The notes beneath the pieces are model-generated. The model did no database searches. It saw nothing but the letters and a program-made list of their open reading frames with translations, and was not told the origin of the DNA. Of a stretch of 36,861 bases of DNA, positions 553 to 21,500 are shown one piece after another (position 1 is the stretch's first letter; every line of letters begins with the position of its first letter). Source of the DNA: a virus; IMG/VR virus record IMGVR_UViG_3300025108_000167, positions 1-36,861 of that record. One strand, 5' to 3'. The translations under genes were made by a program, and so were the position numbers.

Positions 553-3500
553 TTAATATGAGAATTTTCTAGTTACTTTTTTCTTTTTACGTCTTTTAGA
601 TGTTTTAGAGTTTTCAATACCTAAGTTCCACTTTGTCCAACCAGCCATTAAACCAACTCTTTGCCAAGCAGCTAAATCTTCGCCAAAAGCATCTGAAACG
701 TTTACAACTTTTTGATGTAATCTTGACAACGGTATGTTAGTTGCTGTTTGAGTAAACGCAGCGGCAGCTTCCCAAACAGGGTTCTTTAAATTATAGTAAG
801 GAAGTTCTTCTATAAGATCTTTGTTCCATTGTATAGCTCTTTCTCCAGTTCTTATTTGTCTAAATTTAATACCTATTGGTGGAGACAAGTTTGCTAATTC
901 CATTATCACAGCAGATTCATCTTTATTATATGTTTTTTCTTGTTCTTTATAAAAAGCTATAGTCATGTTTTTTATAGTAGATACAACAGCACCACCAATA
1001 CCCATACCTCTAAGTAAACTGTCTATACTACCATTTAATATTCTTTCTTGTTTTTTATCAAAAAACTCTTCATCTTCCTCATCATCACTAAACATCATGG
1101 CAAACAAAGCTGTTTGTAAAGCGTAAAATATTGCGTTTTGCACAGCACCATAGTAAACTATTCTAGAAACGTTTGCTCTTGCGCTACCTCTTCTATTTAT
1201 TAAATCTAAAGCTGCTTTTTTTGTTAAACGCGCATACTGCATAGGAGTGTTTTGAAAAGCTAATATAATTCTACCTAAAACAGAGGCTTGTTGTTGAGAA
1301 ATCATATCAGGTCTAGAAGACTGTTGTGTTTCTTCTGCTATAGCTTGAAAATCATTAAAGGCTTTTTTCTTAGCTTCAGGAACACTCATGCCTTCAGCAA
1401 TATACTTGTTTAGTCTGTTTCTGTAAAACGTAGCACCACCCGCTGCTATAGCAAAACTATCTGCAATTTGCGTGGGTAAAAAACCTTTTGTAAGTATGTA
1501 ATTTACGGCGGCTTTGTACTTGTCAATCATACTACCAGAGTTTGCAACGTAATCAGCTAGTTCATTGGCGTTTACATCCATAGAAAGACCACTACGCCTT
1601 TGCTTTAACATATCAGAGTTAAATATCATAGTAAAGTCAGCCCAGAATTGTTTTTGATTAGCAAAAGCTTTAGCAGCAGCTATAATGTTGTTGTCTTCCC
1701 AATTTATAAAGTTAACAGTAGAAAGAGTTTGTAGTAAAGCAGATCTTACGTTTACAAACATTGTTGTACCAATAGCTCCATTTATCCAGTTCATAAACCT
1801 ATTTACAATTCTATTGTCTCCAAAACTTCTGTTAGTACCGTTTTCTATTCTATACAACATGTCTTCTAAAGCTTCCCTATAGTTTCTACCATAAATAGCC
1901 TCTATCTTATTCATGTTTTCTGGAGAGAATATTATACTTACATTTTCTAAAAACTCAGCAAAAAACTGTTTTCTGTTTATTTTAGATACAGCGTTTTGTA
2001 AGTCTACTTTAATATCTTCAGTCAACCAATGATCTCCCGGTCTAAGATAACCATCTTCTTGTTTAGAAAGAATACCTAAAAGATCCGCAAAAGCTTTTAA
2101 CTCTACATCAGACGATATTATTTTTACTAAATTAGCTTGATCTGTATCTGTAAGCCCTGGTATTTTAAAACCAAACTTATCCCACAAATAAACTCTAATA
2201 GCATCTCCATAAGTATAATCTGAGTTAGGTATTTTTTTATACAATTTTTTAGAAACAACAGGCATCTTTTTTAACAAAGCTTTATAATCATTTGCTATAG
2301 CCTGTTTAGCGTTGTTTAAGGCTTGGTAACCTCTATTTAGTGGTTTTATTAAATTTTCTTTAAACCATTCAAATTGTTGCTCTCCTTTTTTACCTGGGCT
2401 TAAAAAAGAATATATTAAGCCTACAAAGTCTTCTGCAGAAGGTGGTATTAATAATTTAAACTTATTTTTTTCTTCACCTCTTCTTCTAGCTTTAGCTTTA
2501 GAAAATCTTTTCTTAGCTTCTACACCAGATTGTTCTTCAAGTATTTCGTTGAATTCTCTGTCGTACTTAGAGCTTTTGTTAGATATAGCTATTTGTACTT
2601 TAGATTTAATATCTAGCTGCTCTAAAACATTTTTAACAGCTTCTACATTTGGCAAGGCGTCATCAACAAAATACATGTCGTTATATCCTTCTGCAAACTT
2701 GTTAAGCATCCACAATGCTTTTGCCTCACCAGTACTGTTGCCTAAGCCAGTAATGTTTTCAATAGGTATTTTTATACCCTCACTTTCTAAATAAGCATGT
2801 ATTGCTGCTTGACTTTCCGGAGCTCTTGCTGTTAATATAAAAACGTTTTTAGGACCAAACTTTTTAATTTGGTTTTTCATTTTTTCCATTAACGGACCTG
2901 GTTTACCGTTAGTAACTTTGTTAAAATCACTAAAATCCATTTTCCAACCTTCTTTCACAAGTTGATCACCAACCATAGGCCACTCATCAGAAGCTATACG
3001 TTTTGTTTCACCATCTTTAGTAGCTATTACAAAGTTATCGCTAATACCAACTGTCTCATCAAAATCAAAAGCGCTCATACCTCTAGGTTTTCTGTTGTAC
3101 TTAACAGAGTTTGCTGATTGAGTTAGTTTGCTAATTTTCATGTCTTGTTCTACCTCAACCATAGGCTTGTTCATTAACTCTGCAGCTATACTGTGATCTA
3201 GACCAAACACTAAACCTTTTACGCCGTTTACAACATCTTTTATAAGTCTTATTGCTTTAACGTTTTTATCACCTCTATTTATAGGGTTAAACATTCTAAC
3301 CATAGAACCAAACTCTTTACCAGCTTCGTAAACTAAGCCCATCATGTTTTTTAAACCGGTTTTGTCTAGTGTTTTGTCTGCTTCTTTAGTAATTATAGCT
3401 ACGTTGTAGTCCACGAGCTCTTTATCAAAAAGTTTCTTGTAATCACTAGGCTTTGTATTTTTATCTAAAACAATATCTATCATTTTCATTAAAAGATAAG

Positions 3501-6500
3501 AGGCTGGTTTTTGATGTTCAAACCTTATGTTTTCATTGCTGACTTTATCTCCTAATAAAAAGTTACCATTTTCATCTAGTATACCGTCCATTATACCAAC
3601 AACCTTACCAGCTCTTCTTAGTGTAGTGCTAGGGTTGCTCATAAGAGTCATCATCTGAACAACAAAGTCTTGCTCTGTAAATGAAGAATCGTTTTCAAGT
3701 TTGTCAACTAAAAATATAATTTTATTTACTAAAGCTTTACGAGCTAATTCAGCTTCTGCGTCTTTCTTTTCTTGACTATATTTGTTAGCACCTTTACGTG
3801 TAACCTTTTTCATCAAGTTAATCATTTGTGTCACAACTCCTTTTCCATCTTGTGGCTCAAACTTTATTTCAATAAAATTATCTGATTTACCATCTCTAAA
3901 TATAGCTGTGCTTCCCGGGTACTCTTTTTCCATTGCATCAAGAAAATCTTGATCCATACTATAAGAGTATATGTACTTTCTAAAATCTGCTTTTGGACCT
4001 TCTTCAGAGTGAAATAGTTGAAACCTAGGTGTTCCGCTTTCTTTGTATTTAGGGTTTTTTACAAATTTATCCGTACCAGCTATAGATATATACTCACCAT
4101 CACCTTGTTTGTAAGCTGTAATATGATTTTGTTCTTCCATCATAATCTCTTCCAAAACCTCTTGCATGGTTGCCTCACCCTTTTTAAACTTGTCTATTAT
4201 GCTTTTTACCTGCTCAGCAACAACTTTTCTACCTTTAGTTATAGCTTTTCTATTAAATATTTGTTTTCCTGTTGGTGTATCACCATCTTTGGTTTTTAAA
4301 CCCATTTTTTCAGCAAGCCCTACATAAAATTCTACTAACATGTATTTTTCAGCAAACTCCTCAAAAGGTTCTATTTTAATACCTTGAGATTCTAAATTTG
4401 CTTTTTGATACATAAACTGCTTAACTATTCCAGACTCTTTAAACATGTCACCAACAAGCGCTCTAGCTTCTTTGTTTGATAAAAAACCATCTTTAGAAAA
4501 CACTTTAGATACTTTAGTTATCATAGCGCTTTGCTTGGTGTTTTCATGGTCTATTTCTTGAAGAACAAGAGCAACTTCTGGCATACGCTCTTTTATTCCT
4601 GCGTCCATATCAGCTCCATACTTAGCTATAAGCTCTCTAGCTTTTTTAGACTGTGCAGAAGCTGCTAAACCATCTTCTAAAGAGTTTTTAAGTCTTTCGT
4701 TTAAATCACCAGTTAATTCTAAGCTTCTTCTTAAGCTTTGGTTTGTTATAGTTCTGTCTAGCAAAGACAACACAGCGGTTATTTTTGCACTAGTGTTTCT
4801 ATCAACTTTAAACTCAAAACCTTTTTTACCATCTTTAGTTACTCTAAATATTCCTAAATATTCGGCAAAATCTTTTTCACTTAAGTTAGGTTTTTTATAT
4901 TGAGGAAAGTTATTTTTTATTCGCTTGGAACCTTTGTTGTAACCAAATTTTAATAATACATTTGGCATGTTAGTAGATTTAAAAGCTTTTGTGTGACCTT
5001 CGTTAAATATAGTAGACAATATAAGCTGAGCGTGTTTAGCTATAAATCTTTGTCCTGACCTAACCTCGTTGCTACCTGCTTTTCCTTCTCTTTTTCTTAA
5101 ATTAGCTAAAAACTTTGTGCTTCTTGGATTTAGCTTGTCAACATCAACACCTGATAATCTAGCTATAGTTTTGTAAGTTAACCCTTCAACGCTACTTAAC
5201 TCCATAGTGTCTAAGTCAAGATCAAGCATATGTTTTTCTTTTAAACTTTGTTTTAACTGCTCTATGGTTTCGCCACTTTCACTTTCTTCGTTAATAAGTT
5301 TTTTAAGTTGTTTCAACTCATCTAAGCCTTCTGCTATTTCTTTTTCTACTTCTTCTTGAACACCTATTTCTTTAGCCGCGTTATATTTTGGCGCAACAAA
5401 CCTTGGCGCATCATCAAAATCAGCTGGTGTTGAATCGTCCGCAATTTCACCAGTGTTTTCGTTCTCTATGCTTACAACACCTTCCATCGCGCCTTTTTGC
5501 TCAGCTTTTAAAACATCACCATACCTAAGAGGTAAAAGCCTGTTTAAATAAGCTCCAAAAGGTATCAACGCTGGATCATAACTTTGTGAAAGACTTATTA
5601 ATTCTTTTGAAAAGCCTGATTGGAATTGATCAAACCCTATTTTTTTACTTTCTTCTAACCCCATTATTTTAGGGTTTTTAGCCGCAAAGTCAGACAAAGC
5701 AGTGACCAAAGCCATGTTGTTTAAAACTAAATCGTTTCTTAAATCTTCATCATATATAAACTCACCAAACTCATCTTGCTCTCTTGTATTTAAAAGTTCT
5801 TGTCTTATTCTGTCGTTTTCATCTACAATTTTTTGAGTATTTTCTGAAAGTTGTATGTCTTGTTTTACATCATTTCTTTCATAAATATTTTTTTGTCTCA
5901 TACGACCACCTCTAGTAGAAGCACTAGAAAAAGACTTTGCCATCCACTCAGGTAGTTTTTCTTCTTTTTCAAAAGCTTCAGCGTCATCAATAGCTTGTCT
6001 GATTTCTTTACTGTCTATTTTTAAACCATTTTTTATAACTTTTCTCATACCTCTAGAAAACTCTTTGTTGCCTTCTAGCTCAGCGTTATAATCTCTTATA
6101 AAATTAACAATACCTTTAGTACCTTTTATTTTAAGGTTGATACCAGCTTTTCTTAATGTTCTTCTTATAACATCTCCAACTCCACTTAAAAATGTTGAGT
6201 TAAATTTAATATCACCTTGAACTAAAGCTTCAGATATAATAGTAAACATTTCGTCCCACTCCATACCGTTTACTTTATCCTCATACGTTTTAAACTTACC
6301 ACCAACATAATTTGCCTTGTCAGAAAACATATACTTCCTTTTATTTTTACCTAAAAGTTCTTGCCTCATTAAAAAAGCTAAGCCTTTAACTGCCTTAGGG
6401 TTTTTAAGCACTGTTTGTCTAAACACAAGGTGAAACACCTCGTGAAAACCAACACCAAAGTTATCGTCTGTTTCTACCGCGTTTTTACCATCTTTATCTT

Positions 6501-9500
6501 TAGTGTTTATAAAAATTATTGGCTTGTTACCAATGTCATCGTATATAACTACACCAACAGAGTTTTCATCGTACTTATGAAAAGGTAAAGGTTTTAAACC
6601 TTTCTTTTTTCTTTCTTCGTTTTTAATTTTAATTTCTTGGTTTTTTGCTGCTACAGCTTTTGCAAAATCTTTTTTACCGCCTTCCACAATAGCTACGTCA
6701 ATACCAAACATTTTTAACATGCTTTTACCTTTCTTCAAGCTCATGTTGTAAAGACTTTTTTTCCATTCAGTGTTATCTAAACTTTCTAACTTAACGTCTA
6801 AACTAGCTATTTGCTCGTTTAATTTGTTAACTTGTTTTTTAACACCTACTTTGTCTTTTTGTTTTAACAACTCTTGTTTTTCCTTAACAAGATCGTTCTT
6901 TTTCATTATAGTATCTATCTGATCTATTGTAGCATATTTTGGAGCTGCATTTATAGCTTGTGCTATATTTCTAACGTTTTGCTCTATTTTCTTTTCTTCT
7001 TCAAGTCTTTTCTCTAAAGCTTTAATTTTACGTTTGTTGTACTGCTTGTTTCCAGATTTTTTATTTTTAAACTCGTTTAATTTCTTTTCTATTTCTTTTT
7101 GTTCCATTCTAGAAAAGTTCATTAACTCAAGGTTTTTATCTTGAATCTCGTTGTATATTAATTGCTTTGTATTTCTTACTGTTGATATAGCTTGTCTACC
7201 ACCTAAACCACCTGTAAGTAAAGTTGTTCCAACAAGTATTTCTCTTTGAGCCCTAACGTCAGATATTTCAAAAGAATAATCAGCCAAAAAGTTTGACTTA
7301 ACAATATCGTTTAAAATAACATCTAACTGTTCTTCAGCATGCTCTTTAAAAAAGTTTTTAGAAAAAGTTTTCATAGCAGCTCTTATTGCCTGGCTATTAA
7401 GAGCTTTCATTGCTTCTTCTGTACCTACTTTCTTAATGTTTGAAACAAACTGTTTAACCAAGTTTCTTCCCTGTAAAGTGTTTTTTAAGAATTGAACATC
7501 AGGCATGACCATTTGACTAATACCTGTTGCTAGCGTTGTTGCGTTTGCATAAAACACCGCTTTGTCTCCAGACAAACCTTGAGCTCTAGCATCTGAAAGA
7601 TTATCAAAAAATAACATTCTATGGTTAATGTCTACCATTTTTAAACCACCCATTAATCTGTCTCTAGCTGCAGGCGAGGCATTTTTAAAGCTTTTGTGAA
7701 GAGATGATATTATTTTATCACCCATTTTACCCATAGAAATGTTAACACCTGCAAAAGGAGTTAAGTTGTTCATAACCTTGTTAAAGGTAGTAGACTTTCT
7801 AGACATAGACCTTAGAGCAGCAGCTGATCTAACGTTAGCCTTTAACCCAGCGGATGCAATGTTTAAAGTGTATGGTAGTAATTCTGAAACTGTTTTTGAT
7901 ATAGTATATAACGAAGGGTTATAAGCTTTAGGATTAAAAAGACCAGCCAAAAACCCATCACCATCTTCATCTGTTGGATTTATAAGCTTGTCTATTTTGT
8001 TTGTAGGAACTATTTTTTGAGTTGCAGCGCCTGCTAAAAAATCAAGATACTGATCGTTGTATGAATAACCATCTCCACCCCAGCTAGTTGCTTTCATACC
8101 ACCGCCTTGGTCTCCAATTTTATACAAACTATTATCTGCTACTTTAGATATATTGTAACCTGCGCCCATAGCAAGTATTGACGTGGGGTTTACTGCTTTT
8201 TTTAATAGCTTTAATCTACCCATTTCTTCAGCAAAGTTTAAACCAATCTCTCCAGCTGCTCCAAAAAAGTTTTGAGTTAGTTTGTCAAGGCCTATGTCAA
8301 AACCTTTACTAGCTGATAACATGCCAAAAGCATTTTTCTGTTGTTCAATAGGCTTGGCCATATCAAAAGCTAAAGCTTTCCAAGATCCTTCTATATTTTT
8401 TTGCCACTCACCTACTTTTTTGTTTAAATTGTCTCTACTAGCTTTTAACTCGCTACCTTCAATTTCTAAACTTTTTCTATCCTCTTCAAGAGTCAATAAG
8501 TACTCGTTAATTTCTTTTATTCTTTTAGTATCTCTAGGATCTACAGGGATTTTAATAGTGTCAGGTAAATAAACCTCCGCTCCTCTTCTATCCCATATAA
8601 AGCTACCGTATTTTTCTTTTATAGATCTTAACTCTGCGTCTATATTTTTGTAAGAATTAACTAAGTCGTCTTTTGCTTGAAAAAACAATTTTTCTCTTTT
8701 ATTTTGCTCAGCGTTTAACCCAACATATATCTCTCCTTGTTTATTTAAAACTAAGTTTTCATTACCTAAAACCTCTAACTTAGCAGCTGTTACAACTGAA
8801 TTTTTCCATGTAGCGTTGTATCTTGGATCTCCTTGAGCTATAGCTTTGTATTCTCCTGGTTTTACTATGTTTAGTATAGCTATCTTCATTTGATCGTTAA
8901 ACTTACCAAAGTCTAATCTTTCAGAGTTTGGTAAATCTAAAAAAACATCTTTAATAAGAGCGTTGTCAAGATCTCCTTTTTTTAAAGTTGTTATATTTTT
9001 ATAAGCAACGTCTGCAACAGCAATGTCTGTTACGTTTTGAAGATATGTTTCGTCGTATTGTTGTTTTGGGTCTCTAAGGTTAGTAGTGTTTGCAAACTCA
9101 CCTGTATAAAGAGCAACTCTATTTCTAAAGTTAACCTGCGGTGAGGTTGAAGCAGAGTTTTTTGGTCTAATTACATTATCACCGCTTTTAAAAAGCTCTT
9201 CCTTTGTAGCGTAATTAGTGCCGTTTTCTTTGTTTACTTGTTTTAAAACTTCATTTTCATAAACCTGTATTCTTTCTTTGTTGAATTTTACTTTTTTGCT
9301 ATACGTATCACCACCAAGAGGAACAAACTTATTAACAGCTTTTTCTCCCGTCGTTGCTTTTTTAAAGTCTTCCATGTTATCGTACACAATCTCGGTAGGA
9401 ACTAATTTACCATCGCGCATTTCAAACTGAGGTGCAATACCTTTTACTCTAGGTATATCGTATTTGTTGGTTTCAGGATTAAAAACATAGTTGCTTTCTG

Positions 9501-11415
9501 TAAAACTAAATTCATCTCGTTGAGAATTCAATGAATTAGTTAAGTTTGGGTTAAGCAATCTTCTTTGAAATTTTGAAACTTTTTCAACATTAATACCATA
9601 AGGATTTCCAGCTAAAACAGCGTCTTCAGATTCAAACTTACCTGCTATTTCTTTTGATAATTTATCTGGATCAACATTAGTAACTGTAGCTGCAAAAGCT
9701 TTTTCGTCTGCTAATTTTTTTGCTTTTTTCTTTTTTTCTCTTGCATCAGTATCACTTATCGTTCCATTGTTCAGTGCATTACTTACATAACCAGCAGGCA
9801 TATTAGCCAAAGCGGTTTCTTTTAGATCTATTTTGTTGTCATCTTTTTTATCGGTAAAAATAAAATCTTCATCGTTTACTCCAGCCGTTATTTTTGTGAT
9901 ACTAGACCTGTAGTTTTCTTCAACTTTTTCAGCACCAGTAGCAGTGGCTAACTTATCTTCTGCTGGTTTAATTTTTATTAGCTCAATATCTTTTTTAGGA
10001 ATTTCAATTAATTTTTCTTTTTTCCTAACATTAGAGTTATTATCTTGCTGGCCAACCACAACTTCGTTACCATCCATATCAGTCATATAAGTTGTTCCAG
10101 CTGTAGTATTATTGTTTTGTGGTGCTACATAGTCTGCGCCTCCTGGAAAATCATCCGGATCGTCTTTTTCTACCTCGTTTATTTCTTCTGTAGGGGTTTC
10201 TATTTTGCTTTCAACTTTGCTTTCAACGCCCATAGAAAAAATCGGTGGAGCTGGTGCGTCGCCTAAATTTTTTTCTAATTGTGATTTTTTACTTATTTCA
10301 TTTAAAGTTCCTTGTGGATCTTTTAAATACTGCTCAACAGTGTAACCTTGTTTTTCTAAAGCTTTTACATACTTTTTATTTTTAGAGTTTTCTAAAGCTT
10401 GTTTAGCTGATGGTAGAACAAAAGGTGTTTGCGTAACAGCATTGTTAGTAGAGGTTTCAGAAGCGTTATTGGTAGTGGCTGCAGAAGCGGCGTTAGCCCC
10501 AGCAACTGCTCCGCCAGTTTTATTAGCTATAAATTGATCTTTACTAGGAATACCTTCAGGGCCTTTTTTTTGTTCAGTAGCAAATATATTTGGCTTAAAA
10601 AGGTTATCACCTTCTTGAGTAGAGCTAGCTTGTACATCTGTTGAGGAAGTTGTAGTTGTTTCTGTTGGAAATCTTGCGGCTGTTAAACTGTCAGTAGTCA
10701 TTGCCTCTGTATCAGTTAACTTTGTAGAGTCTACTTTGTTTTTTGTTCTATGCTCATTAAGCCTTTTCATCCAACCTCTGTTGAATGTGTAGTTTGTATC
10801 TTTTTCGCTTGTTTTTATATAACTTTGCTCTCTTCTATTAGCATAAGCATTTAAAACTTTATCTCCACCAACATTTTCGTCTGCAATAGCTAAATTAACA
10901 TGTTTAATAGCGTCGTCAAGATCAGTAAACTTACCTCCTGGAACAGTGTAACCAGCATTTTTTAACGTTGTAAGAATTGTTTCGTTTTTTGTACCTGAAT
11001 CACCAAATGTAAAGTTTTGGTTAATCATAGCGTCGTATATACTAGCGCCTACTTTTTTATCTGTTATTTCACCAAGCTTATGCTTATCCCAAATATTTTT
11101 TTTAAAATAAGATTCTACTTTAGCTTTACCAGCGTTTTGTATTTCTTCTGAAGATGTTTTTGTAGCATTTGAAAACTCTTTATTGTACTCGTCGTTTAAT
11201 TTTTTAAAGTTTTTAGTGTCCCATTTGCTAGGTACTTTTTTATTATTCCAACTCATCCAAGCAGACAAAGTAATACCATAATAAGTTTTAGAATAAGCTA
11301 TTGTACCGTCTGCAAGCTCAGTTCTATTACCATTATCGTTTTTCATTACGTTTACGCCAGCCTCTGAATCAGCGGATAATCCATGAGCGTAAGAAAAGTT
11401 TGTTTCTTCAGCCAT
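553..11415 (-). CDS. Giant multidomain internal virion (ejection) protein, 3620 aa, with muramidase, metallopeptidase and HAD domains
   Basis: It is last in a series of three genes resembling T7 gp14-gp15-gp16 and starts 3 bases after the previous stop. Visible parts in order: GH108-type muramidase (about 10-225); a Thr/Ser/Asn/Ala-rich linker (225-600); helical, low-recognition sequence to about 1415, including a Gly/Ala-rich hydrophobic stretch near residues 1065-1090; Lys/Glu coiled coil (1415-1540); zinc-metallopeptidase-like domain with HEVFH at 1658-1662; sigma-70-like stretch (about 1895-2112, weak); HAD-type phosphatase (2780-2945); and a C-terminal segment with a QQQAS...AFQNTPMQY motif (about 3370), a hydrophobic helix at about 3418-3441, an AGWTKWNLG motif and a polybasic tail. 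T7 gp16 has 1318 residues with an N-terminal transglycosylase, so this is nearly three times larger. The mix of enzymes resembles 'polyvalent' phage proteins thought to enter the host with DNA. Ejection is inferred from gene order and the muramidase. Confidence 0.8.
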   Translation of the reverse strand: MAEETNFSYAHGLSADSEAGVNVMKNDNGNRTELADGTIAYSKTYYGITLSAWMSWNNKKVPSKWDTKNFKKLNDEYNKEFSNATKTSSEEIQNAGKAKVESYFKKNIWDKHKLGEITDKKVGASIYDAMINQNFTFGDSGTKNETILTTLKNAGYTVPGGKFTDLDDAIKHVNLAIADENVGGDKVLNAYANRREQSYIKTSEKDTNYTFNRGWMKRLNEHRTKNKVDSTKLTDTEAMTTDSLTAARFPTETTTTSSTDVQASSTQEGDNLFKPNIFATEQKKGPEGIPSKDQFIANKTGGAVAGANAASAATTNNASETSTNNAVTQTPFVLPSAKQALENSKNKKYVKALEKQGYTVEQYLKDPQGTLNEISKKSQLEKNLGDAPAPPIFSMGVESKVESKIETPTEEINEVEKDDPDDFPGGADYVAPQNNNTTAGTTYMTDMDGNEVVVGQQDNNSNVRKKEKLIEIPKKDIELIKIKPAEDKLATATGAEKVEENYRSSITKITAGVNDEDFIFTDKKDDNKIDLKETALANMPAGYVSNALNNGTISDTDAREKKKKAKKLADEKAFAATVTNVDPDKLSKEIAGKFESEDAVLAGNPYGINVEKVSKFQRRLLNPNLTNSLNSQRDEFSFTESNYVFNPETNKYDIPRVKGIAPQFEMRDGKLVPTEIVYDNMEDFKKATTGEKAVNKFVPLGGDTYSKKVKFNKERIQVYENEVLKQVNKENGTNYATKEELFKSGDNVIRPKNSASTSPQVNFRNRVALYTGEFANTTNLRDPKQQYDETYLQNVTDIAVADVAYKNITTLKKGDLDNALIKDVFLDLPNSERLDFGKFNDQMKIAILNIVKPGEYKAIAQGDPRYNATWKNSVVTAAKLEVLGNENLVLNKQGEIYVGLNAEQNKREKLFFQAKDDLVNSYKNIDAELRSIKEKYGSFIWDRRGAEVYLPDTIKIPVDPRDTKRIKEINEYLLTLEEDRKSLEIEGSELKASRDNLNKKVGEWQKNIEGSWKALAFDMAKPIEQQKNAFGMLSASKGFDIGLDKLTQNFFGAAGEIGLNFAEEMGRLKLLKKAVNPTSILAMGAGYNISKVADNSLYKIGDQGGGMKATSWGGDGYSYNDQYLDFLAGAATQKIVPTNKIDKLINPTDEDGDGFLAGLFNPKAYNPSLYTISKTVSELLPYTLNIASAGLKANVRSAAALRSMSRKSTTFNKVMNNLTPFAGVNISMGKMGDKIISSLHKSFKNASPAARDRLMGGLKMVDINHRMLFFDNLSDARAQGLSGDKAVFYANATTLATGISQMVMPDVQFLKNTLQGRNLVKQFVSNIKKVGTEEAMKALNSQAIRAAMKTFSKNFFKEHAEEQLDVILNDIVKSNFLADYSFEISDVRAQREILVGTTLLTGGLGGRQAISTVRNTKQLIYNEIQDKNLELMNFSRMEQKEIEKKLNEFKNKKSGNKQYNKRKIKALEKRLEEEKKIEQNVRNIAQAINAAPKYATIDQIDTIMKKNDLVKEKQELLKQKDKVGVKKQVNKLNEQIASLDVKLESLDNTEWKKSLYNMSLKKGKSMLKMFGIDVAIVEGGKKDFAKAVAAKNQEIKIKNEERKKKGLKPLPFHKYDENSVGVVIYDDIGNKPIIFINTKDKDGKNAVETDDNFGVGFHEVFHLVFRQTVLKNPKAVKGLAFLMRQELLGKNKRKYMFSDKANYVGGKFKTYEDKVNGMEWDEMFTIISEALVQGDIKFNSTFLSGVGDVIRRTLRKAGINLKIKGTKGIVNFIRDYNAELEGNKEFSRGMRKVIKNGLKIDSKEIRQAIDDAEAFEKEEKLPEWMAKSFSSASTRGGRMRQKNIYERNDVKQDIQLSENTQKIVDENDRIRQELLNTREQDEFGEFIYDEDLRNDLVLNNMALVTALSDFAAKNPKIMGLEESKKIGFDQFQSGFSKELISLSQSYDPALIPFGAYLNRLLPLRYGDVLKAEQKGAMEGVVSIENENTGEIADDSTPADFDDAPRFVAPKYNAAKEIGVQEEVEKEIAEGLDELKQLKKLINEESESGETIEQLKQSLKEKHMLDLDLDTMELSSVEGLTYKTIARLSGVDVDKLNPRSTKFLANLRKREGKAGSNEVRSGQRFIAKHAQLILSTIFNEGHTKAFKSTNMPNVLLKFGYNKGSKRIKNNFPQYKKPNLSEKDFAEYLGIFRVTKDGKKGFEFKVDRNTSAKITAVLSLLDRTITNQSLRRSLELTGDLNERLKNSLEDGLAASAQSKKARELIAKYGADMDAGIKERMPEVALVLQEIDHENTKQSAMITKVSKVFSKDGFLSNKEARALVGDMFKESGIVKQFMYQKANLESQGIKIEPFEEFAEKYMLVEFYVGLAEKMGLKTKDGDTPTGKQIFNRKAITKGRKVVAEQVKSIIDKFKKGEATMQEVLEEIMMEEQNHITAYKQGDGEYISIAGTDKFVKNPKYKESGTPRFQLFHSEEGPKADFRKYIYSYSMDQDFLDAMEKEYPGSTAIFRDGKSDNFIEIKFEPQDGKGVVTQMINLMKKVTRKGANKYSQEKKDAEAELARKALVNKIIFLVDKLENDSSFTEQDFVVQMMTLMSNPSTTLRRAGKVVGIMDGILDENGNFLLGDKVSNENIRFEHQKPASYLLMKMIDIVLDKNTKPSDYKKLFDKELVDYNVAIITKEADKTLDKTGLKNMMGLVYEAGKEFGSMVRMFNPINRGDKNVKAIRLIKDVVNGVKGLVFGLDHSIAAELMNKPMVEVEQDMKISKLTQSANSVKYNRKPRGMSAFDFDETVGISDNFVIATKDGETKRIASDEWPMVGDQLVKEGWKMDFSDFNKVTNGKPGPLMEKMKNQIKKFGPKNVFILTARAPESQAAIHAYLESEGIKIPIENITGLGNSTGEAKALWMLNKFAEGYNDMYFVDDALPNVEAVKNVLEQLDIKSKVQIAISNKSSKYDREFNEILEEQSGVEAKKRFSKAKARRRGEEKNKFKLLIPPSAEDFVGLIYSFLSPGKKGEQQFEWFKENLIKPLNRGYQALNNAKQAIANDYKALLKKMPVVSKKLYKKIPNSDYTYGDAIRVYLWDKFGFKIPGLTDTDQANLVKIISSDVELKAFADLLGILSKQEDGYLRPGDHWLTEDIKVDLQNAVSKINRKQFFAEFLENVSIIFSPENMNKIEAIYGRNYREALEDMLYRIENGTNRSFGDNRIVNRFMNWINGAIGTTMFVNVRSALLQTLSTVNFINWEDNNIIAAAKAFANQKQFWADFTMIFNSDMLKQRRSGLSMDVNANELADYVANSGSMIDKYKAAVNYILTKGFLPTQIADSFAIAAGGATFYRNRLNKYIAEGMSVPEAKKKAFNDFQAIAEETQQSSRPDMISQQQASVLGRIILAFQNTPMQYARLTKKAALDLINRRGSARANVSRIVYYGAVQNAIFYALQTALFAMMFSDDEEDEEFFDKKQERILNGSIDSLLRGMGIGGAVVSTIKNMTIAFYKEQEKTYNKDESAVIMELANLSPPIGIKFRQIRTGERAIQWNKDLIEELPYYNLKNPVWEAAAAFTQTATNIPLSRLHQKVVNVSDAFGEDLAAWQRVGLMAGWTKWNLGIENSKTSKRRKKKKVTRKFSY
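2581..3078 (-). other. Domain: HAD-superfamily phosphohydrolase within the giant protein
   Basis: All four HAD motifs are present in order: motif I AFDFDETV with nucleophile D2784 and acid/base D2786; motif II FILTAR with T2862; motif III lysine K2899 in STGEAKALW; and motif IV YFVDDALPN with D2918 and D2919. This is a complete, apparently active set. HAD enzymes with this spacing include polynucleotide 3'-phosphatases, nucleotidases and protein phosphatases. The substrate here is unknown. Confidence 0.85.
5080..5733 (-). other. Weak sigma-70-like stretch within the giant protein
   Basis: Residues about 1895-1970 read like sigma-70 region 2: NNMALVTALSDF, then GFDQFQSGF..ELISLSQSYDP and PFGAYLNRLLPLRYGDVL, paralleling 'NLRLV..IA', 'DLIQEG..GL..AV..FDP' and 'FSTYA...IR'. 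Further on, residues about 2078-2111 (GLTYKTIARLSGVDVDKL followed by a KFLANLRKR segment) resemble the region 4 helix-turn-helix with its LRK tail. This is pattern matching by eye. Neither segment is close enough to call a sigma factor, and the second could be coincidence. Confidence 0.3.
6196..6723 (-). other. Domain: HExxH metallopeptidase-like domain within the giant protein
   Basis: Residues about 1565-1740 contain GVGFHEVFHLVFRQ, giving zinc ligands H1658 and H1662 and catalytic E1659. Upstream is a beta-strand region, VGVVIYDD and KPIIFIN, typical of the sheet before the active-site helix of zincins. About 60-70 residues downstream, MEWDEMFTIISEALVQGD offers E1722 or E1729 as the third, gluzincin-like ligand. 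Metallopeptidase domains of this kind occur in phage polyvalent proteins. Possible roles are self-processing of the 3620-residue chain or cleavage of a host target; the sequence does not distinguish these. Confidence 0.75.
10741..11388 (-). other. Domain: GH108-type N-acetylmuramidase with peptidoglycan-binding C-half, N-terminus of the giant protein
   Basis: Residues about 10-225 follow the GH108 (zliS-like) pattern. An E-[AG]-G motif carries the candidate catalytic Glu18 and is followed by TYYGIT at residues 44-49, matching the usual GGATNYGIT region. The helical peptidoglycan-binding half then has IYDAMINQ, a divergent LQxxL-type repeat (TILTTLKNAGY), a YANRREQSY segment and NRGWMKRL near residue 213-220. 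The family hydrolyses the beta-1,4 bond of peptidoglycan. Here it would open the cell wall during DNA entry rather than at lysis, because it is fused to a virion protein. The spacing between Glu18 and YGIT is longer than in the canonical motif, so activity is probable but not certain. Confidence 0.8.
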
Positions 11416-11418
11416 ATA

Positions 11419-13038
11419 CTAGTTTGGGTTTGTCTCTATTCTATTGTTGTTTTTATTTAACTGCTCGTACCAAGTGCTAGCATCGTTACCTAGCTCATCG
11501 GCACCAAAACCTGTGCTAAACTTAGCAAAATTAAGTTTTGTTTTAAGACGTTCCATAGTCTCATTTTGATCACCTGTAGTAAAATCAAAAGTAAACTCAG
11601 TCAAACCACCATCATCACCAGGCATTTTAAAAGTTAAAACTCCATCTTTAGCAGATATTGATTCAACGTCAGAGCCTTTGTATTGTGTTTGTATGTTTTT
11701 AAGTAAACTTCCATCTTTATCTAATTGATTTCCAAAATCAAATTCAGTCCAATTTGTAACTCTTTCAAGTTCAGCACCACCTGCGCCGCGGTTATCAGCT
11801 CCAGTACCTATATATGCCGTTGTAGCAGCGTCAAAACGCATACTGTTGTTGACTTCATTTTTTCTTGTTGTAACATCACCTACTTTAGGCTCAACACCTT
11901 TAGTTGTAAAAAACGTTGAAAAAGAACCATCACTGTTTGGTTCGTTAAAATAAGTTTGGTTTTTTATCATCAAATCTTTTTGCTGCTTTTCATACTCTGT
12001 GTTAGTTACATCACCCATAAACTTAGAATATTTATCAACAATAAAACCTACATGATTATTCCTATTTTCACCTTCAACTTTACCTTTACTGTTTTTATTT
12101 CTTAAAAAATCCTCTAGGTCTTGTTCTGTTAAACCGCCTCTTGGGTCTTTTACTCCCTGCCTTAGTATTGCATCAGGATTGTAAGTTTTGCCATTAACCT
12201 GAATATAATCGCCGTTTTCAAAGGTATAAAACGAAGGATCTAGCGCACCTGACTTAAAAGAACCCATAAAAGGGTTTTCAACACCGTCATTACTATGATC
12301 TTGAGTTATAATGTCCATTGCTTGCTGAAGGGTTGGAGGACCACCGTTGTTAGACACCATCAATTTATTTTTGTAGTCTTTTTCAACCGCAGTGTTGTTT
12401 TGTTTTTTACTGTAGTCAATAGCTGTCCCGTGATTAGTGTCCCACACACCTAAAATAGCGGTGCTTCCTTCGTTAAATTGACTAAAACCTACTGGTAAAT
12501 TATTTTTGTCAAAAAAAGTTTCTCCCTTGCCATCTTTATTTTTTATCGTAATACCGTGAACACCGTTTTGATTTACTATTTTGAATTCTTCTCCACCAAA
12601 CATTCGAGCAAAATACTTATCGTCTTCACTCATTCCAGGTGAAAAAACACCTCTGTTTTCTATTGTTTGAACTAAAGCGTCATTTAGCTCTAGACCAAAA
12701 GTAATATCTTTTTTAGCGCTATTTATAGCTTTAGATCTACCAACTTGATCACCAGCTTTTGCGTGGTCACCCTTAAGCGTTGTAGTTGATTCCGTCATCC
12801 AAGACTCAATACTTGGCTTAAGACTATCGTCTCCAGTATAGTGTGATGCAATAGATTTATCAAAAGCGTTGTTTGCATTAGCTACAAATTTTCTTGTAGC
12901 ATCAGCTTGTGCCGCGGCTGCCTGCTTCATGCCACCTAGCATTTTGTCAACAGCCATACCATAACCTAAGTTAGGATCTATTTTTTGTGCTGCTCTATCC
13001 GCTTGTATTAAACCTACATCTGCTTTTCCAAATGCCAT
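11419..13038 (-). CDS. Putative internal virion / ejection protein, 539 aa (T7 gp15 position)
   Basis: No enzymatic motif is recognised. The N-terminal about 130 residues are Ala/Gln/Lys-rich and likely helical (KMLGGMKQAAAAQADATRKF). The remainder is charged, Asn/Gly/Asp-rich and probably mixed alpha/beta, ending in a polar ETNPN tail. It sits between the 250-residue gp14-like protein and the giant protein with gaps of 4 and 3 bases, so the three are likely translated together. T7 gp15 occupies the same place and builds the middle of the trans-envelope ejection channel. The assignment rests on synteny and composition only. Confidence 0.55.
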   Translation of the reverse strand: MAFGKADVGLIQADRAAQKIDPNLGYGMAVDKMLGGMKQAAAAQADATRKFVANANNAFDKSIASHYTGDDSLKPSIESWMTESTTTLKGDHAKAGDQVGRSKAINSAKKDITFGLELNDALVQTIENRGVFSPGMSEDDKYFARMFGGEEFKIVNQNGVHGITIKNKDGKGETFFDKNNLPVGFSQFNEGSTAILGVWDTNHGTAIDYSKKQNNTAVEKDYKNKLMVSNNGGPPTLQQAMDIITQDHSNDGVENPFMGSFKSGALDPSFYTFENGDYIQVNGKTYNPDAILRQGVKDPRGGLTEQDLEDFLRNKNSKGKVEGENRNNHVGFIVDKYSKFMGDVTNTEYEKQQKDLMIKNQTYFNEPNSDGSFSTFFTTKGVEPKVGDVTTRKNEVNNSMRFDAATTAYIGTGADNRGAGGAELERVTNWTEFDFGNQLDKDGSLLKNIQTQYKGSDVESISAKDGVLTFKMPGDDGGLTEFTFDFTTGDQNETMERLKTKLNFAKFSTGFGADELGNDASTWYEQLNKNNNRIETNPN

Positions 13039-13042
13039 ATCT

Positions 13043-13795
13043 TTATTGTTTATATGTTAAACCACCTATTAAATTACCAATACCACCAACCATCTGTTGC
13101 TGTGCCATCATCTGAGCTTGGTTTGCGGCTGCCACTCTATTAGCATCCATACCAAGTATAGTACCTTGTTTACTCTGTTCCATTTGCATAGATGCTAGTT
13201 CTCCTTTAGCTACAGACTGATCAACCATAGTAGCACCTTTAGCTTGCATTAGTTGGTTTTTAGAATCTTCTTGCGCTGTTAACATGTTTATTTTAGCTTG
13301 GTTTTGTTGGGCTAGCATGTTGTTTTTAGCTTCTTGAGCACCTATAGAAGCGGCTGATTGCCTAGCAAATTTAGCGCTTGAGTTTGCCATAGCTTGTGCT
13401 AAACTAGCAACACCACTACCTCCGGCAGCTCCTTGCATGCTTTGCATTATATTAGCTTGACTTTGTTGAAACTGATCACCCATAAACTCTGCTTGTTGTG
13501 TGTTTACTTGTAAATCAGTCATTGGATTATCCATGCCAGCAAATTTATTTTCCATACCAGAGTATCTGTTTTTCATGTTAGCGTAAGGATTGCTAGTGTC
13601 TAAACCTTTGTACACAGCTAGCTGTTTGTCGTATGCCGCTCTAGCAGCTTCTCTTTCTTTTCTTCTTTTACCACCAAAATCAACAGCTGACAAAATTTGT
13701 GCTGCACCGCCTAAGCCCATCATTAAACCTAAAGGTAAGGCCGCGTAGTTAGCGTTTGCTTGGTAAGTAAAAATTTCTGAAATTAAATCTATCAT
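13043..13795 (-). CDS. Putative internal virion / ejection protein, 250 aa (T7 gp14-like)
   Basis: An N-terminal hydrophobic Gly/Ala/Met segment (about residues 18-38, LPLGLMMGLGGAAQILSAV) is followed by a basic KRRKERE stretch and then a Gln/Ala/Met/Ser-rich helical body (QQAEFMGDQFQQSQANIMQ, QQQMVGGIGNLIGGLTYKQ at the end). This composition, one membrane-prone helix plus long Gln/Ala helices, is typical of small podovirus ejection proteins such as T7 gp14, which inserts in the outer membrane. It precedes the 539- and 3620-residue genes. An alternative internal start at the MM near residue 25 would delete part of the hydrophobic segment, so the upstream ATG is preferred. Confidence 0.65.
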   Translation of the reverse strand: MIDLISEIFTYQANANYAALPLGLMMGLGGAAQILSAVDFGGKRRKEREAARAAYDKQLAVYKGLDTSNPYANMKNRYSGMENKFAGMDNPMTDLQVNTQQAEFMGDQFQQSQANIMQSMQGAAGGSGVASLAQAMANSSAKFARQSAASIGAQEAKNNMLAQQNQAKINMLTAQEDSKNQLMQAKGATMVDQSVAKGELASMQMEQSKQGTILGMDANRVAAANQAQMMAQQQMVGGIGNLIGGLTYKQ

Positions 13796-13836
13796 AATAT
13801 ATTGTATTGTTTATTTATAATTACACCTTATATGTA

Positions 13837-14199
13837 TTATTTACTACTTAATGCTACTTCTGAGCCAACTGCAAACAACTCTGCTTTATCAGTAGAATCA
13901 TTTACCATTTCTACCTCAGCATAGTAACCTGTTAAGCTTGCGTTAGAAACATCTGCTTTTTTAACAAAAAACACGTAGTCACTACTTGGGCTGCCATCAG
14001 CCGGTATTTGCGGGTTATCGTTAGGCACTATAGTTATAGTAACTGTTTTTCTGTCTGCAGACAAATTTGTTACATCACCTATATAATGCACACTGCCATC
14101 TGCTGATTTCATAAAAGCAGAATCGTATGCATCAGCGTTGTGATTTGCTTGTAAAGATACGTTTACTGGGTTATCAAAAGCTAAGCTTATTGTTGACAT
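13837..14199 (-). CDS. Small beta-rich virion protein of unknown function, 120 aa
   Basis: Not recognised. The sequence alternates short hydrophobic strands with Asp/Asn/Ser turns (TVTITIVPNDNPQIPADG, DYVFFVKKADV, YYAEVEMVND) and lacks Cys, suggesting a small beta-sandwich such as a decoration or cement protein. Its leader carries the 13-base string TTAACAATTAAAA close to the ATG, also found at nearly the same distance before the major capsid gene, which hints at high expression. It lies 18 bases after the 439-residue gene. Virion location is inferred from its neighbours. Confidence 0.5.
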   Translation of the reverse strand: MSTISLAFDNPVNVSLQANHNADAYDSAFMKSADGSVHYIGDVTNLSADRKTVTITIVPNDNPQIPADGSPSSDYVFFVKKADVSNASLTGYYAEVEMVNDSTDKAELFAVGSEVALSSK

Positions 14200-15538: not shown

Positions 15539-18500
15539 TTATATTTGTTCTTGGTAAGCTGATCCAGCCGTTACTGTTAATATTGTCTTTGTATTTGCAG
15601 ATGGAAATGGATTACTAACGTATGTTATTGTAACTTTTACAGAACCGTTGTTTTGTAAAGTAGCAGCAACTGTTCCAGCAAAATTATTTATAGCATCAGG
15701 CTCTGTTAATGAAAAAGTAAAGTCTTCAGCGGCTAATTTCCACGCGATACCTCTTGATGTTTGAGGGTGTATATAAAAATCTACTGTTTTACCCGTAACG
15801 TTTGATGCTGCTTTTTCGTTAAATTTAATAACCTTACTTGTTGCAGTTGAATCTGCAGAGTTATTGATTATCCATTTTTTAGGCTCAACATTGCTAGCTA
15901 TATCTACAGCGGTTACAGTATGTGTGAAGCTTCTAACGTTAGAGTTTAAACTTATTGTAGATGGTTTTCCAACACCCTGAACATTTAATCCCTGCGTTTT
16001 TAGTAAATCAACATCGTTATTTATTTTAGCGCCTTTTATAAAGTTAAAATATTTACCTTCTTTTTCTACAAAAGTTAAAATGCTACCGTTTTCTTTGTCT
16101 GTAGTTATTGTATTTGCAGTCCAACCACTATCACCTTCATAACTTATAGTTTTAAAATCTTTAACCGTATCTGGTTCACCATTAAATACTAGTTTAATTT
16201 TAGAATCATATTGAGTTGAGTAAAAATTATTTCTAGTTAAACTTTCATTATGTAACCACATTTCACCATCTTTAAACGTGTAATAAGAGTTGTTGCAAGA
16301 TATTCCATTTTCAGGTAAAAATGATTTAAAACTTACCCAACCATTTACTTTTTCAGTAAAACTTAATGTGTTATTGTTTAGAGTTACATTGTAATTAGAT
16401 TTTAAAACATCATAAGAACCTACAACGCTTAAACTGTTATCTAAATTTTCTCTAAAATATTTAGACATACCTTTTTCAGATATATTTGTAATACCGTCCA
16501 TTGAAAGTCTAAGCATGGCACCTCGTTTTCTATCTGAAAAATAACATCTATAACCGTGTGAAGCAAAAGACTCTGGGTTTTTAGATATGCCATATTCACC
16601 TGCAAAAGGTACTGATTGTCCTAAAACTTTGTTTGTAGCCGTAAGCTGTGGGTTTCCATCAGCATTAAATAAAGCGTCTTTATTAGCTAAAACTTTTAAA
16701 ATTTTATCTTCACATAAAACAACAATGTTTGTATCTCTTGTGTGAAGTTTTTGTATTGGCCCGTAGTCAGGATTTAAATCTTTTGTTATTTTTTCACCTT
16801 GAATAAATTGATTTGTACTATTGAAACTAGAGCTTGAGTTGTATATACCAGAATATATTAAACCGTTTGATTTAACTTCTTCAGCATAATCTTGATCTAG
16901 TATTGTAGATACTCTAGGGCCTTTATCTATAGTAACCGCGTTATAATCATCAAAAATTCTGTTAGACTCTACGCCGTTTCCAAAAGCAAAACAATTGAAA
17001 TAATTTAATGTTGACCAGTTAGAATCAACAATATTAATAATAGAACTGTTTAGCGTTGGTAATCCAGATCCACTAGCGCTAACACTACCACCACCTGCCA
17101 CTACTAAATTATCTTTAAGAACTATATCTTCGGAGTATATTTCATCTCCATTAATATCTTTTTTGTAAACAATAACAGTTTCTCCTTTAGGTACAGTATG
17201 GTTAACGTGGTTTGGGCTTACAACAAATCTATTTAACGATGAGTTAGGTAGTAAATTTATAACAGCGTTTGTGTCTAGTGGGTTTTCGTCATTTGCTGTT
17301 CTATAATCAGTTTTAATACTCATACCGTCTTTTAGTATCATTTTGGTAGAAGGTGTCTCATAAAAAATATTTAAGTCTACTTTGTCTTTAGGCAGCACTT
17401 CAAAAACAGCTGGTGATTTAACGCTTATGTCAACTTCTCCAAAATCTACTTCACAAGCAGAAAAACTTCTAGCGTTTGATCCTATGTACTTTTTACGATT
17501 AGCTATAGACTCAGCACTGCTAAAAATTTTAGCTCTAGTATATATGTTAGAGCTTAACTCTAAGTGGTCTACTGCAGCATTACCTCTTTTGTCAGCTTCT
17601 TCCATAGGTGACCAGTATATAGCTTTATCTAGCTGAATATTAATTCCTAAAAATATTTCACTAAACTTAGCTTTTTCTTCCTTAGCACCGTAACTCCAAG
17701 ATGTATGTAACCTATCAATAGAGCCGTTACTATCTCTAGCGTCTGTGTTGTAGCCAAAGAAACTTTCTGCTCTTACTATTTTATAAACAGTATTTGTAGG
17801 ATCTGATGGAAATCTAAAGTTTTGCCCTGGTGTTATAAGGTACTTATAAAGGTTGTATAGTTGACCTAAATTACCTTTTCCTTTTCCTGCACCGTTAATA
17901 CCTGTTATTTTAAAAGAACAAAATGTATTACCGACAACCCAACCGTCTCCAACATAAGGTTCTGGTCGAGCAAAGCCGTAAGAACTAGTGCCTCTAAAAC
18001 CTACTGTTTGGTCAATAACAAGTTTAGGTGTTTTGCTACCTCCAGAAAGACTAGGAGTGTCGTAGTTTAAAAACTGCATGTTAAAACCGGTTATAGAGTT
18101 TTGAGCGTATTGATTAGATTTTATAATACCTCTTGTAGTACCGCCAAATTTTAATCTTATTTTACTGCCATTAAACAAGCCCGTAGCTGCCCAAGCAACA
18201 GGAGAGTAGCCGTTTGTAAAGTCAACACCATTTTTAGTTGCTGTAAAATCATTAGCTTGTACAGACTCTGGATTTAAATTAAAGCCGTTGCCATTTAACG
18301 TTCTACTTTGTCCAGAAGCAAAAACATCAGCGTAAGTTTCTTGCCCAGCAATATCTGGATCCATTGAAATACTTTTACCAAATTTAGATCTTGCAGTATT
18401 AAAGTGATCATAAGAGCCATTAATTAATTGATAATCGCTATTTGGTGGTATTGATAGTATAGACCTTATTAAAGGTGAAGAATCAAAATCATTAGTGCCT

Positions 18501-21500
18501 TCTAATATAGCATCGCTGTTAGCTTGGTCTAATAACCATGTTTTTGCAGAAAAAACTTTTGCAGAGTCTCTACTAATCCAGGTGTTTGTTGATACTATTG
18601 TTCTAGTAATAAAATCGTTTAAATAACTATCTCTTTTTATTTTTACAAAAAACTTACCTTTAAACTCTTCACCAAAATCTTCAGTTGTTTGTTTGAAAAA
18701 AGTAGCTTTTAAATCTAAATCTTGAGGGTTTGGAAGAACAGTGTTTACAGCATCAAAACTGCTATTTGCAATATTAATTAAATCTATTCTAGCTGATTGA
18801 GGTGAAGAGCCTACAAACTCAATATCAAAACCAAAAGGCCTTTTAAGTCTAAATAAAAAAGACTCTTTGTTATCTCTAAAGAAAATCTCTTGCTCATCAG
18901 TAACTTCTATTGCTTGACTAAGTTTTACTGTTTGGCTAGTGATACTCACAACAAAAACGTCCTTTCCATCAAAGTCAGTACCGTCTTTAGTTTTTACCAC
19001 TCTCATACCAATCTCTATAAGGCTAAGGTTAGTAACATTATTACTATCAGAATGTGTAGTTGTAGTATTGTTTAATAAAGTTATAGAGGTGTTGTTTTGC
19101 CCGCCGTCAGTTTTAAAACACAAAGCTTTAAAGCCAGGAATTATTCCTTTTATACGGTCAGACTGGTCTGGAGTTGTTTGTGTTCCATCTGGATTTATAC
19201 CAAAATAGTCTGATTTTTTGTATATCTGATCAATTTCATATTTTTCAGACAAAGTACCATCTCCATCGCCAATCTGTACAAATCTATTAGGTGCGTCATA
19301 CCAAACACCAGTGTTTGTAATAAAAGAATCTAATTCATCTATAAACTCCGGGTCGTCTCTTAAATCGTAAACACTCAATAAAAAAGTATTAGAACCTTTT
19401 GTAGGGTATCTAGTTGTTTGTTGGCTATATTTTTCGTTTTTAACAGTGTTACTATCACTTGAGCTAACAATATCTCCTATTGAAAAAGTAGTTTTTTCAC
19501 TAGACGCACCGACCTCTGCCATTGTAAATTTTATATGGTTTGGTGGTTCTGTTTGCTTGTCTAAAACTTTATATTTTACAGTTTCGCCTGGCGCTACCGT
19601 CGCTGCGTTTTCAGTACCATGCTCTTTTTTAATAGCAACGTAGTCGTTTTCATTTACTTTGTTTATTTCTGAAGAAGGAAAAGAAATCCAAACGTTTTCG
19701 TCTTCTAAGTCTGGATAAAACCTATCCATTGCTAAATTATAATACTCATTAGAAGAGTCTTTAACAAAGTATTTGTAGTGAGTAGCCCAAGTTGGTGGCG
19801 GTGAGTTTAATGAAACTTCTAAAGAATTAGAAGTTGCTGATTTTGATTGATCTATTTTAACAACTCCAGATTCGTGTGTAAAAACTGGTGATTGTCTACC
19901 AAACTCATCTAAAAATGATACTCCAATTTGATAATCTCTTATAGACTTTAAAGATTTTAATGGTTTTTCTGTTATTTCAGTGCTATTAATTTTTGTTTTA
20001 AACTTAGAAGGCGTGCTAAAATAATCGTATTGTTGAGTGTAATTTCCATAAACAACTCTATTGCCAGTAATTTCTTGAGCCAAAGCTTTTCTAGGTACAT
20101 TGTCATAAGGCCTTAGCATTTGGTTTTCTGGAAGTAAAGATTTAATTTCTTCAAGCGTTATAACTACTGAATCGTTATTTTTAATATTTTCAAAATCACT
20201 ATGCTCTATTGTTTTTACAATGTACACATTTGTAGCATTAGATTTTTTGTACAATATGTCAATACTTTTTGCGTCTTTTGGAGGTTTGGCAAATCCTGAT
20301 AAAGTAATTCTTCTAACGTCGTTTATCATAGACTTGTTATAACCATCTTTAGAATCATAACTATAACCTTTTTCTGACAAAGGTAAAAAAGCAACTTCTG
20401 TAAAAGGTGATATTGCAGAGTATTCGTTGTCTATATATTTCCATCTAAAGCTAAACCTTGCAAACTCTTTTTCATATATAGCCTCTGGCTGTACTCTTTT
20501 AGACTTAAATTTAGTTTGATCTAAATTTGACAATATAGTGTTATCAATAGAAACTATTTCACAGTCAAACAACTGTTTACCATCATCAGTACCAATAGTA
20601 CCACAAGAAGTTGTTGATGTGCCAGTTACTTTCTTTAAAACGACATTGTCAATTCTAGCGTCCCAATCATGGTCATTATAAAATAATAGCTCACTAAGAC
20701 TTAGAGCTCCTCTTGCTACAGATTTTTGTTTAAAATATACTGTTTTACCACCTGTGGTAGAAGTGTCTAATAATATATGGTTTGTATGGCCAAAATCGAC
20801 GTCATCACCTACATACACGTTGTTTGTTGATAAAACTAATTTTAAATAACCAGCGTCACTACTACCAGACGTAGCTACAGCAACATCGTAAGTTAGTTTG
20901 TAAACTTCATCAGCAACTAAGCTTTCGCTCAATACATTTCTAACATAACCATCACTAGTACCATTAGATGACAAACCTCCAGATGTTACATAAAAACCAG
21001 CTGCAGATGTACCTACGTCTGTTGTACCTGATAATCCAGTATGCCAAGTGGTTAAACTATTAAAATCACCATTTGAGATTTTATCGTTACCAGTTACACC
21101 GCTACCTACCGCGTTAGCATGAGATGTAGGTATTGAATTTGTATTTTTTACAGTAATTTTATCAATAAGTCTAACTTTTATATCAACAAAAGCGTCATCA
21201 TCAACACTTAACGCGCCTGAGTCTTCTGCTTGTAAAGAAATTATATCATTAACCTCGTAATTAGTTCCGTAAAATTGTAAAGGTTGTATTTTTACTGGCC
21301 TTGGTTTTGTTAAACATTCTATAGAGTTTATTTTAATAGAACCTACCATTTCGTCAGAAGCTACTAAACATAATTGGCCATCTGCACCGTCTTGAAGCTG
21401 CTTCCAAATAATATCTATTTCATATGTACCGTTGTAATATCTGTAAGTTTCTAAAGCGTTAAGACCATTTATAGCTGTTGCTATGTTGGTGTTTGCTTTT

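Follow-up and report, generated by a model that had tools for sequence, protein, structure and literature searches.

A giant, probably ejected polyvalent protein with an exchangeable wall-cutting head and a constant HAD phosphatase domain in uncultured phages

Introduction

In phage T7, gp16 is the product of the largest and last of three internal-protein genes (gp14-15-16), and its endolysin-type domain is N-terminal. In phage N4, the small-mid-giant gene order gp52-gp51-gp50 ends in the virion RNA polymerase gp50, a protein of about 3,500 aa in which an HExxH domain is followed by a large helical C-terminal domain (PMC12633501). N4 gp50 is packaged unprocessed, and the N4 ejection proteins are reported without a wall-cutting head. 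In more general terms, phage polyvalent proteins join unrelated enzymes in one huge chain: according to the main text of the survey that describes them, they contain zincins (HExxH plus a glutamate) and lysozyme domains and are encoded beside virion genes, their zincins being proposed to process the chains and their lysozymes to help entry; profile evidence in the same text connects the zincin of N4 with lethal factor (PMC5512222).

The DNA analyzed here, hereafter the window, is a linear IMG/VR virus fragment of 36,861 bases, and it encodes a protein of 3,620 aa with several unrelated enzymatic domains in one polypeptide: (i) a GH108 muramidase; (ii) a zincin; and (iii) a HAD phosphatase. Together with a C-terminal fold common to annotated polyvalent proteins, this composition upholds the kinship with polyvalent proteins which had been proposed in the initial annotation. 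The kind of protein at issue, the polyvalent ejection protein, is already known; the HAD phosphatase, in contrast, goes unmentioned in that survey's main text (PMC5512222). Like T7 gp16, the giant has an endolysin-type domain and is the last and largest of three genes, but it is nearly three times longer. It differs from the N4 ejection proteins in having a wall-cutting head, and from N4 gp50 in that an RNA polymerase domain was not detected in it by Pfam, whose sequence profiles may miss one.

The giant gene and its neighborhood

The giant gene lies at 553-11415. These coordinates had previously been given without a strand; the plus-strand reading is rejected, as it has stops throughout, while the minus strand holds a single uninterrupted ORF (ATG at 11415, stop at 553), which bears out the claim of one 3620-residue gene. 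All feature coordinates given below for the window are likewise on the minus strand. One homologue (L002) is 86% identical to the protein along the alignment, and another five full-length homologues share the gene context. Measured against L002, dN/dS is 0.18 in the GH108 region, 0.41 in the linker behind it, 0.055 in the zincin, 0.007 in the HAD domain and 0.073 in the C-terminal domain. Given these homologues in the same context, and a dN/dS well below 1 in every region, the ORF is not a chance one.

The gene sits downstream of the virion genes in a minus-strand array of podovirus type, which comprises terminase (PHROG 6681), portal (PHROG 6547), capsid-type and tail genes. Directly upstream of it are a gene of 539 aa (11419-13038), in the position of T7 gp15 and N4 gp51, and one of 250 aa (13043-13795), in the position of T7 gp14 and N4 gp52. 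The giant thus closes a small-mid-giant trio (250-539-3620 aa) after the virion genes, which agrees with the gp16-like position assigned to it initially. Among the matches listed, the median length in the relatives is 463 aa for the gene that precedes the giant (n = 89) and 249 aa for the next one (n = 88). The small gene is conserved, with homologues in nearly all relatives (83 matches, including the window's own entry), and it is distantly similar to elemo gp20 and phi38:1 gp99, both annotated as virion structural proteins. Comparison of the trio members with T7 gp14/15/16 and with N4 gp51/52 gave no sequence signal.

The terminase of the window is 33-63% identical to those of MW202828 (an uncultured podovirus) and of flavobacterial phages (Elemovirus, Pervagoviridae, Pachyviridae). 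Thirteen loci of the family fall in MAG bins of Flavobacteriaceae, Sphingobacteriales, Cryomorphaceae and Saprospiraceae, but also of Maricaulis, Aliivibrio, Woesearchaeota and others. Since MAG binning is unreliable, it is mainly the terminase relatives that suggest a host, which is probably a marine member of the Bacteroidota.

Cultured phages with a related terminase have giant virion proteins at the same gene position (elemoF gp18, phi38:1 gp101, phi13:2 gp127), and these positional counterparts are annotated as structural proteins. The zincin profile matches elemoF gp18 (E 3.5e-10), and part of the C-terminal domain is found in Gundel gp74 (E 1.1e-11), from another phage with a related terminase. 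A HAD domain was sought in all four of these giants and not detected. In MW202828, the positional counterpart (L001:741-12320) has 3859 aa and two HExxH motifs; it was deposited as a 'reticulocyte binding/rhoptry protein', evidently a misannotation.

Other genes of the window are also of note. A second very large gene (15539-22951, 2470 aa) has four stretches matching the virion protein PHROG 14478 (1474 positions) and far exceeds both this profile and its isolate counterparts in length. An ORF at 33321-33932 matches a PHROG named co-chaperonin GroES (E 2.5e-14) and overlaps the next ORF, at 33101-33424, by about 100 bases. Many tail fibre proteins, from 41 PHROGs, have ends similar to the C-terminal part of the product of 35825-36748, which resembles an intramolecular chaperone domain. 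Five relatives have an ORF downstream of the giant that is in every case exactly 349 aa long (L003:17977-19026, L004:17268-18317, L005:15980-17029, L006:16307-17356, L008:17062-18111); the window ends before that site.

Extent and constant core of the family

A search with the single sequence found seven loci. With profiles, 409 IMG/VR stretches match the C-terminal domain and 269 the HAD domain; the best 80 of each set were taken on and, once duplicates had been removed, 140 proteins were left, all of them uncultured homologues. Among the matches listed (these 140 proteins), complete members have about 2,200-4,300 aa. In one relative (L008), the giant is split into two ORFs in different frames (4000-8577 and 8696-13843; 1525 and 1715 aa), while it is intact in the close relative L007; the split is either a sequencing error or a real disruption.

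With the window protein (P0001) as tblastn query, 50,697 phage records gave no match, and with two divergent members nothing but one stretch of 162 residues over the HAD domain, 23% identical, in a 462-kb uncultured phage.

In the full-length alignment of 109 members (among the matches listed), the positions before the C-terminal unit with more than 80% identity are G1621, N1637, H1658, E1659, H1662, E1722, the glycines 1232, 2089 and 2188, and H2634. Together with the invariant motifs described below, this pattern is the trace that would be expected of two active enzymes. The constant core of the family consists of the HExxH motif, the HAD domain and the C-terminal domain.

The zincin domain

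A gluzincin-like metallopeptidase domain is assigned to residues 1555-1810 (5986-6753) from the family alignment, the AlphaFold model and the low dN/dS. Its HExxH motif is HEVFH (residues 1658-1662; 6430-6444), and Glu1722 (6250-6252), 63 residues after the glutamate of the motif, is the probable third zinc ligand. Searches of this region against Pfam, PHROG, NCBIfam and PDB sequence profiles gave no credible match, and the same is true of the HAD region. Since the peptidase and the phosphatase are invisible to profiles, the reading of their motifs was tested instead by conservation in homologues. Among the matches listed, exactly one HExxH is present in 126/126 full-length members, against 0.011 per protein expected by chance from shuffled sequences, and H1658, E1659, H1662 and E1722 are invariant in 77/77 aligned members. 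The HExxH peptidase that had been read from the motif is hence sustained, though no sequence profile matches it.

With the family alignment, AlphaFold models the zincin region at pLDDT 84.7 and pTM 0.84. Foldseek of this model against the PDB gave no significant match, and in structural re-alignment the best match, anthrax lethal factor, is weak (Z 6.5, rmsd 5.3). Direct homology to N4 gp50 was considered but gained no support: hhalign of the zincin, HAD and C-terminal profiles against gp50 detected no relation.

As regards function, the zincin more likely cuts the giant chain itself than host targets, by analogy with polyvalent zincins. That it is instead a host-directed protease appears doubtful to us; the survey's main text indeed proposes both kinds of action for polyvalent zincins (PMC5512222), but each member has a single zincin whatever other modules its chain carries, as expected of a processing enzyme.

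The HAD phosphatase domain

Residues 2770-2950 (2566-3108) form a HAD phosphatase domain, assigned from complete catalytic motifs, fold and dN/dS. Motifs I-IV are present as D2784xD2786xT2788, T2862-A-R2864, K2899 and D2918-D2919. Among the matches listed, the nine residues D2784, D2786, T2788, T2862, R2864, K2899, D2918, D2919 and N2923 are invariant in 141/141, a count of the sequences holding the HAD part, in which a few extra rows are fragments of the profile match. The nine signature residues and the HAD fold of the model support the complete HAD phosphatase that had been claimed, even though no sequence profile matches it.

The checks proposed in the initial annotation gave a divided outcome. 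Profile searches confirmed GH108 and left the zincin and the HAD domain without a match in Pfam, PHROG and NCBIfam; structure prediction returned a confident HAD fold, and a zincin model which is confident in itself but matches the PDB only weakly.

The AlphaFold model of the HAD domain plus the C-terminal unit has pLDDT 80.6 and pTM 0.67. Foldseek of the HAD model against the PDB gave no significant match. In VIA-align, the six top rows are all Pnkp 3'-phosphatases (Z 12.6-11.3, the next HAD at 10.9), a margin which for the top rows exceeds a 1-unit tie yet is modest, and a fold does not fix the substrate. The best of them is T4 Pnkp 5uj0 (Z 12.6, rmsd 2.5, 128 aligned residues; model residues 6-177), and bacterial Pnkp1 reaches Z 12.2. 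The phosphatase domain of T4 PseT is accordingly the closest solved fold and has the same motif I. In contrast to PseT, the giant has no visible kinase domain, and 20 related contigs, most of them incomplete, yielded no RNA ligase partner. Direct homology to PseT gained no support beyond motif I, to which the hhalign signal is limited (probability 6.9%).

A role in tRNA repair was considered in view of PF09414 (RNA_ligase) matches in 9/20 related contigs. It lost ground: both ORFs examined are ATP-dependent DNA ligases, and neither RtcB nor an AAA_33 kinase was found in the 20 contigs, most of which are incomplete. These two results reduce the RNA-repair claim to a minority reading. The ORFs at L189:1429-2289 and L190:1435-2280 encode ATP-dependent DNA ligases of about 285 aa (PF01068) that also match the RNA_ligase model, an annotation trap.

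Judging from the modelled fold, a 3'-phosphate at a nucleic-acid end may be the substrate of the HAD domain; this is our best single guess, and a tentative one. It is less likely that the domain is a protein phosphatase (for instance, of phosphotyrosine) acting as an effector that resets host signalling. The single-domain PDB match to which Foldseek gives the highest probability is Ceg4, a HAD effector of Legionella (prob 0.99, E 0.16), and Lem4 reaches Z 9.8 with its HAD domains; the Pnkp rows nevertheless stand higher in structural re-alignment (12.6-11.3 vs 9.8) and have a lower rmsd, the difference being modest.

A search of the literature for HAD proteins in phage virions turned up nothing relevant. 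Neither 'phosphatase' nor 'haloacid' occurs in the survey's main text (PMC5512222), and its three matches to 'HAD' could not be connected with the fold. As an invariant cargo, the HAD domain is new relative to that main text and to the cultured phages searched.

The C-terminal domain and the regions between

The C-terminal domain (residues 2951-3620; 556-2565) is constant, nearly all-helical and similar in fold to phage polyvalent proteins; nowhere else is the chain as conserved as in the C-terminal unit. Against a viral structure library, this unit first finds four public homologues at 32-53% identity; dozens of further matches are phage proteins that are 10-16% identical, with E as low as 2e-13. 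Matches named PolyVal ADP-ribosyltransferase, MuF-C or large polyvalent protein-associated have E of about 1e-6 to 1e-9 and TMq of 0.27-0.48. No credible match to PDB sequence profiles was obtained for this domain, and Pfam found none of its polyvalent-associated domains in the giant by sequence.

Between the head and the zincin there are a fast-evolving linker of low conservation (residues 221-700; 9316-10755) and a poorly conserved region (residues 701-1554; 6754-9315). The coiled coil noted earlier is recovered as a K/E-rich, coiled-coil-like stretch around residues 1423-1570. The region between the zincin and the HAD domain (residues 1811-2769; 3109-5985) is moderately conserved in the family alignment. 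The membrane-prone helix that had been described finds no support: the most hydrophobic 19-residue window (3424-3442) has a Kyte-Doolittle value of 1.32, below the usual transmembrane threshold.

The wall-cutting head and its exchange

The head (residues 1-220; 10756-11415) matches the GH108 family PF05838 at residues 17-132, with 28.7 bits in the whole protein and 32.2 on a slice, above the curated Pfam cut-off of 21.2 bits; a weak PG_binding_3 match follows at 182-219. Glu18, which we take to be the catalytic Glu of GH108, is conserved in the four GH108-bearing relatives (P0001, L002, L004, L011). The muramidase claimed beforehand is therefore present, but it does not belong to the core: it is an exchangeable head, recognisable in a minority of the family. 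Among the matches listed, a Pfam wall-lytic domain was found in 8/127 N-termini, and most members are without a recognisable wall-cutting head.

The clearest exchange is that between L011 and L012, which have unrelated beginnings and, starting at residue 260/222, are 93.6% identical through to the C-terminus. Their flanking genes are homologous, and their upstream DNA can be matched at 80-87%. The head is GH108 in L011 and one and the same SLT (lytic transglycosylase) in L012 and L013. An assembly chimera could mimic one such case; the head common to the separate contigs L012 and L013 speaks against it there. The window protein is itself 61% identical to L012 from residue ~700 on, with unrelated heads. 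Elsewhere, L032 has a glucosaminidase head and L025 an SLT head. The head of L003 is probably of M15 type, as suggested by its SxHxxGxAxD...HxH motif; a 200-aa slice of it gave no match in Pfam and PHROG scans. Searches by phmmer with the GH108 head and with the M15-like head found no matches.

A second break point is seen in L016 (3587-12061) and L018 (3716-12076), where 94% identity extends only over the last ~880 residues, that is, the HAD domain and the C-terminal unit, which places the apparent recombination point just before the HAD unit. From such pairs we conclude that the front parts of the chain are exchangeable in this family and its C-terminal unit constant. The occurrence of unrelated wall-cutting folds at one place argues that this place serves wall cutting.

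Proposed mode of action

The best explanation, which we regard as probable, is that the giant is a polyvalent ejection protein: it would breach the wall and bring in a HAD phosphatase, and its zincin would probably process the chain. Together with the products of the two genes upstream, the chain would be packaged in the capsid, to exit through the tail; packaging in virions is most likely, given the gene position and the structural-protein annotation of the isolates' positional counterparts. The N-terminal head, here a GH108 muramidase, would then cut the host peptidoglycan, a step supported by head exchange and by the analogy with T7. Either before packaging or after entry, the zincin would most likely cut the giant chain, allowing its parts to act separately. 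Every member would deliver the C-terminal unit, in which the HAD phosphatase is followed by the helical domain of ~650 aa, which probably has a role in packaging or docking. Inside the cell, the HAD domain would most likely dephosphorylate a conserved substrate, of either the host or the phage: its active site is strictly kept while nearly all else in the chain changes, which points to a conserved target there. The sequence of cutting, entering and acting which had been deduced from the N-to-C order of the domains is plausible from that order.

A purely structural internal virion protein, in which the zincin (as a maturation protease) and the HAD domain (as a scaffold) serve assembly only or are relics, would fit the high conservation of the C-terminal unit as well as the proposal, made in the survey's main text (PMC5512222), that the zincin of P1 DdrB acts before packaging. 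We nonetheless consider it improbable: the catalytic residues of both domains are invariant in all members which, with the HAD dN/dS quoted above, argues for active enzymes. That the giant is an unpackaged lysis or assembly protein with its GH108 head as endolysin is most improbable since, while relatives do have GH108 endolysins (e.g., phi13:2 gp092), here the muramidase is joined to 3,400 aa of further chain and encoded where the virion genes end, after the two conserved genes of the trio, and positional counterparts in isolates are annotated as virion structural proteins.

Implications

If the giant is an ejection protein, the exchange of heads amounts to a natural experiment, in which entry proteins that are ~94% identical carry either a muramidase or a lytic transglycosylase; this pair would be useful for understanding how phage entry adapts to host walls. 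A more far-reaching proposal, to which we give a rather low chance, is that a large uncultured marine phage group packs a 3'-end-healing phosphatase fused to its ejection protein, countering host nuclease defences that leave 3'-phosphates or cyclic phosphates before these phages express their genes. If the main reading of the giant as an ejection protein is right, entry proteins would always carry a HAD phosphatase as cargo in a large and widespread group of uncultured phages, whose C-terminal unit is encoded by 409 IMG/VR stretches, and it would be delivered before phage gene expression.
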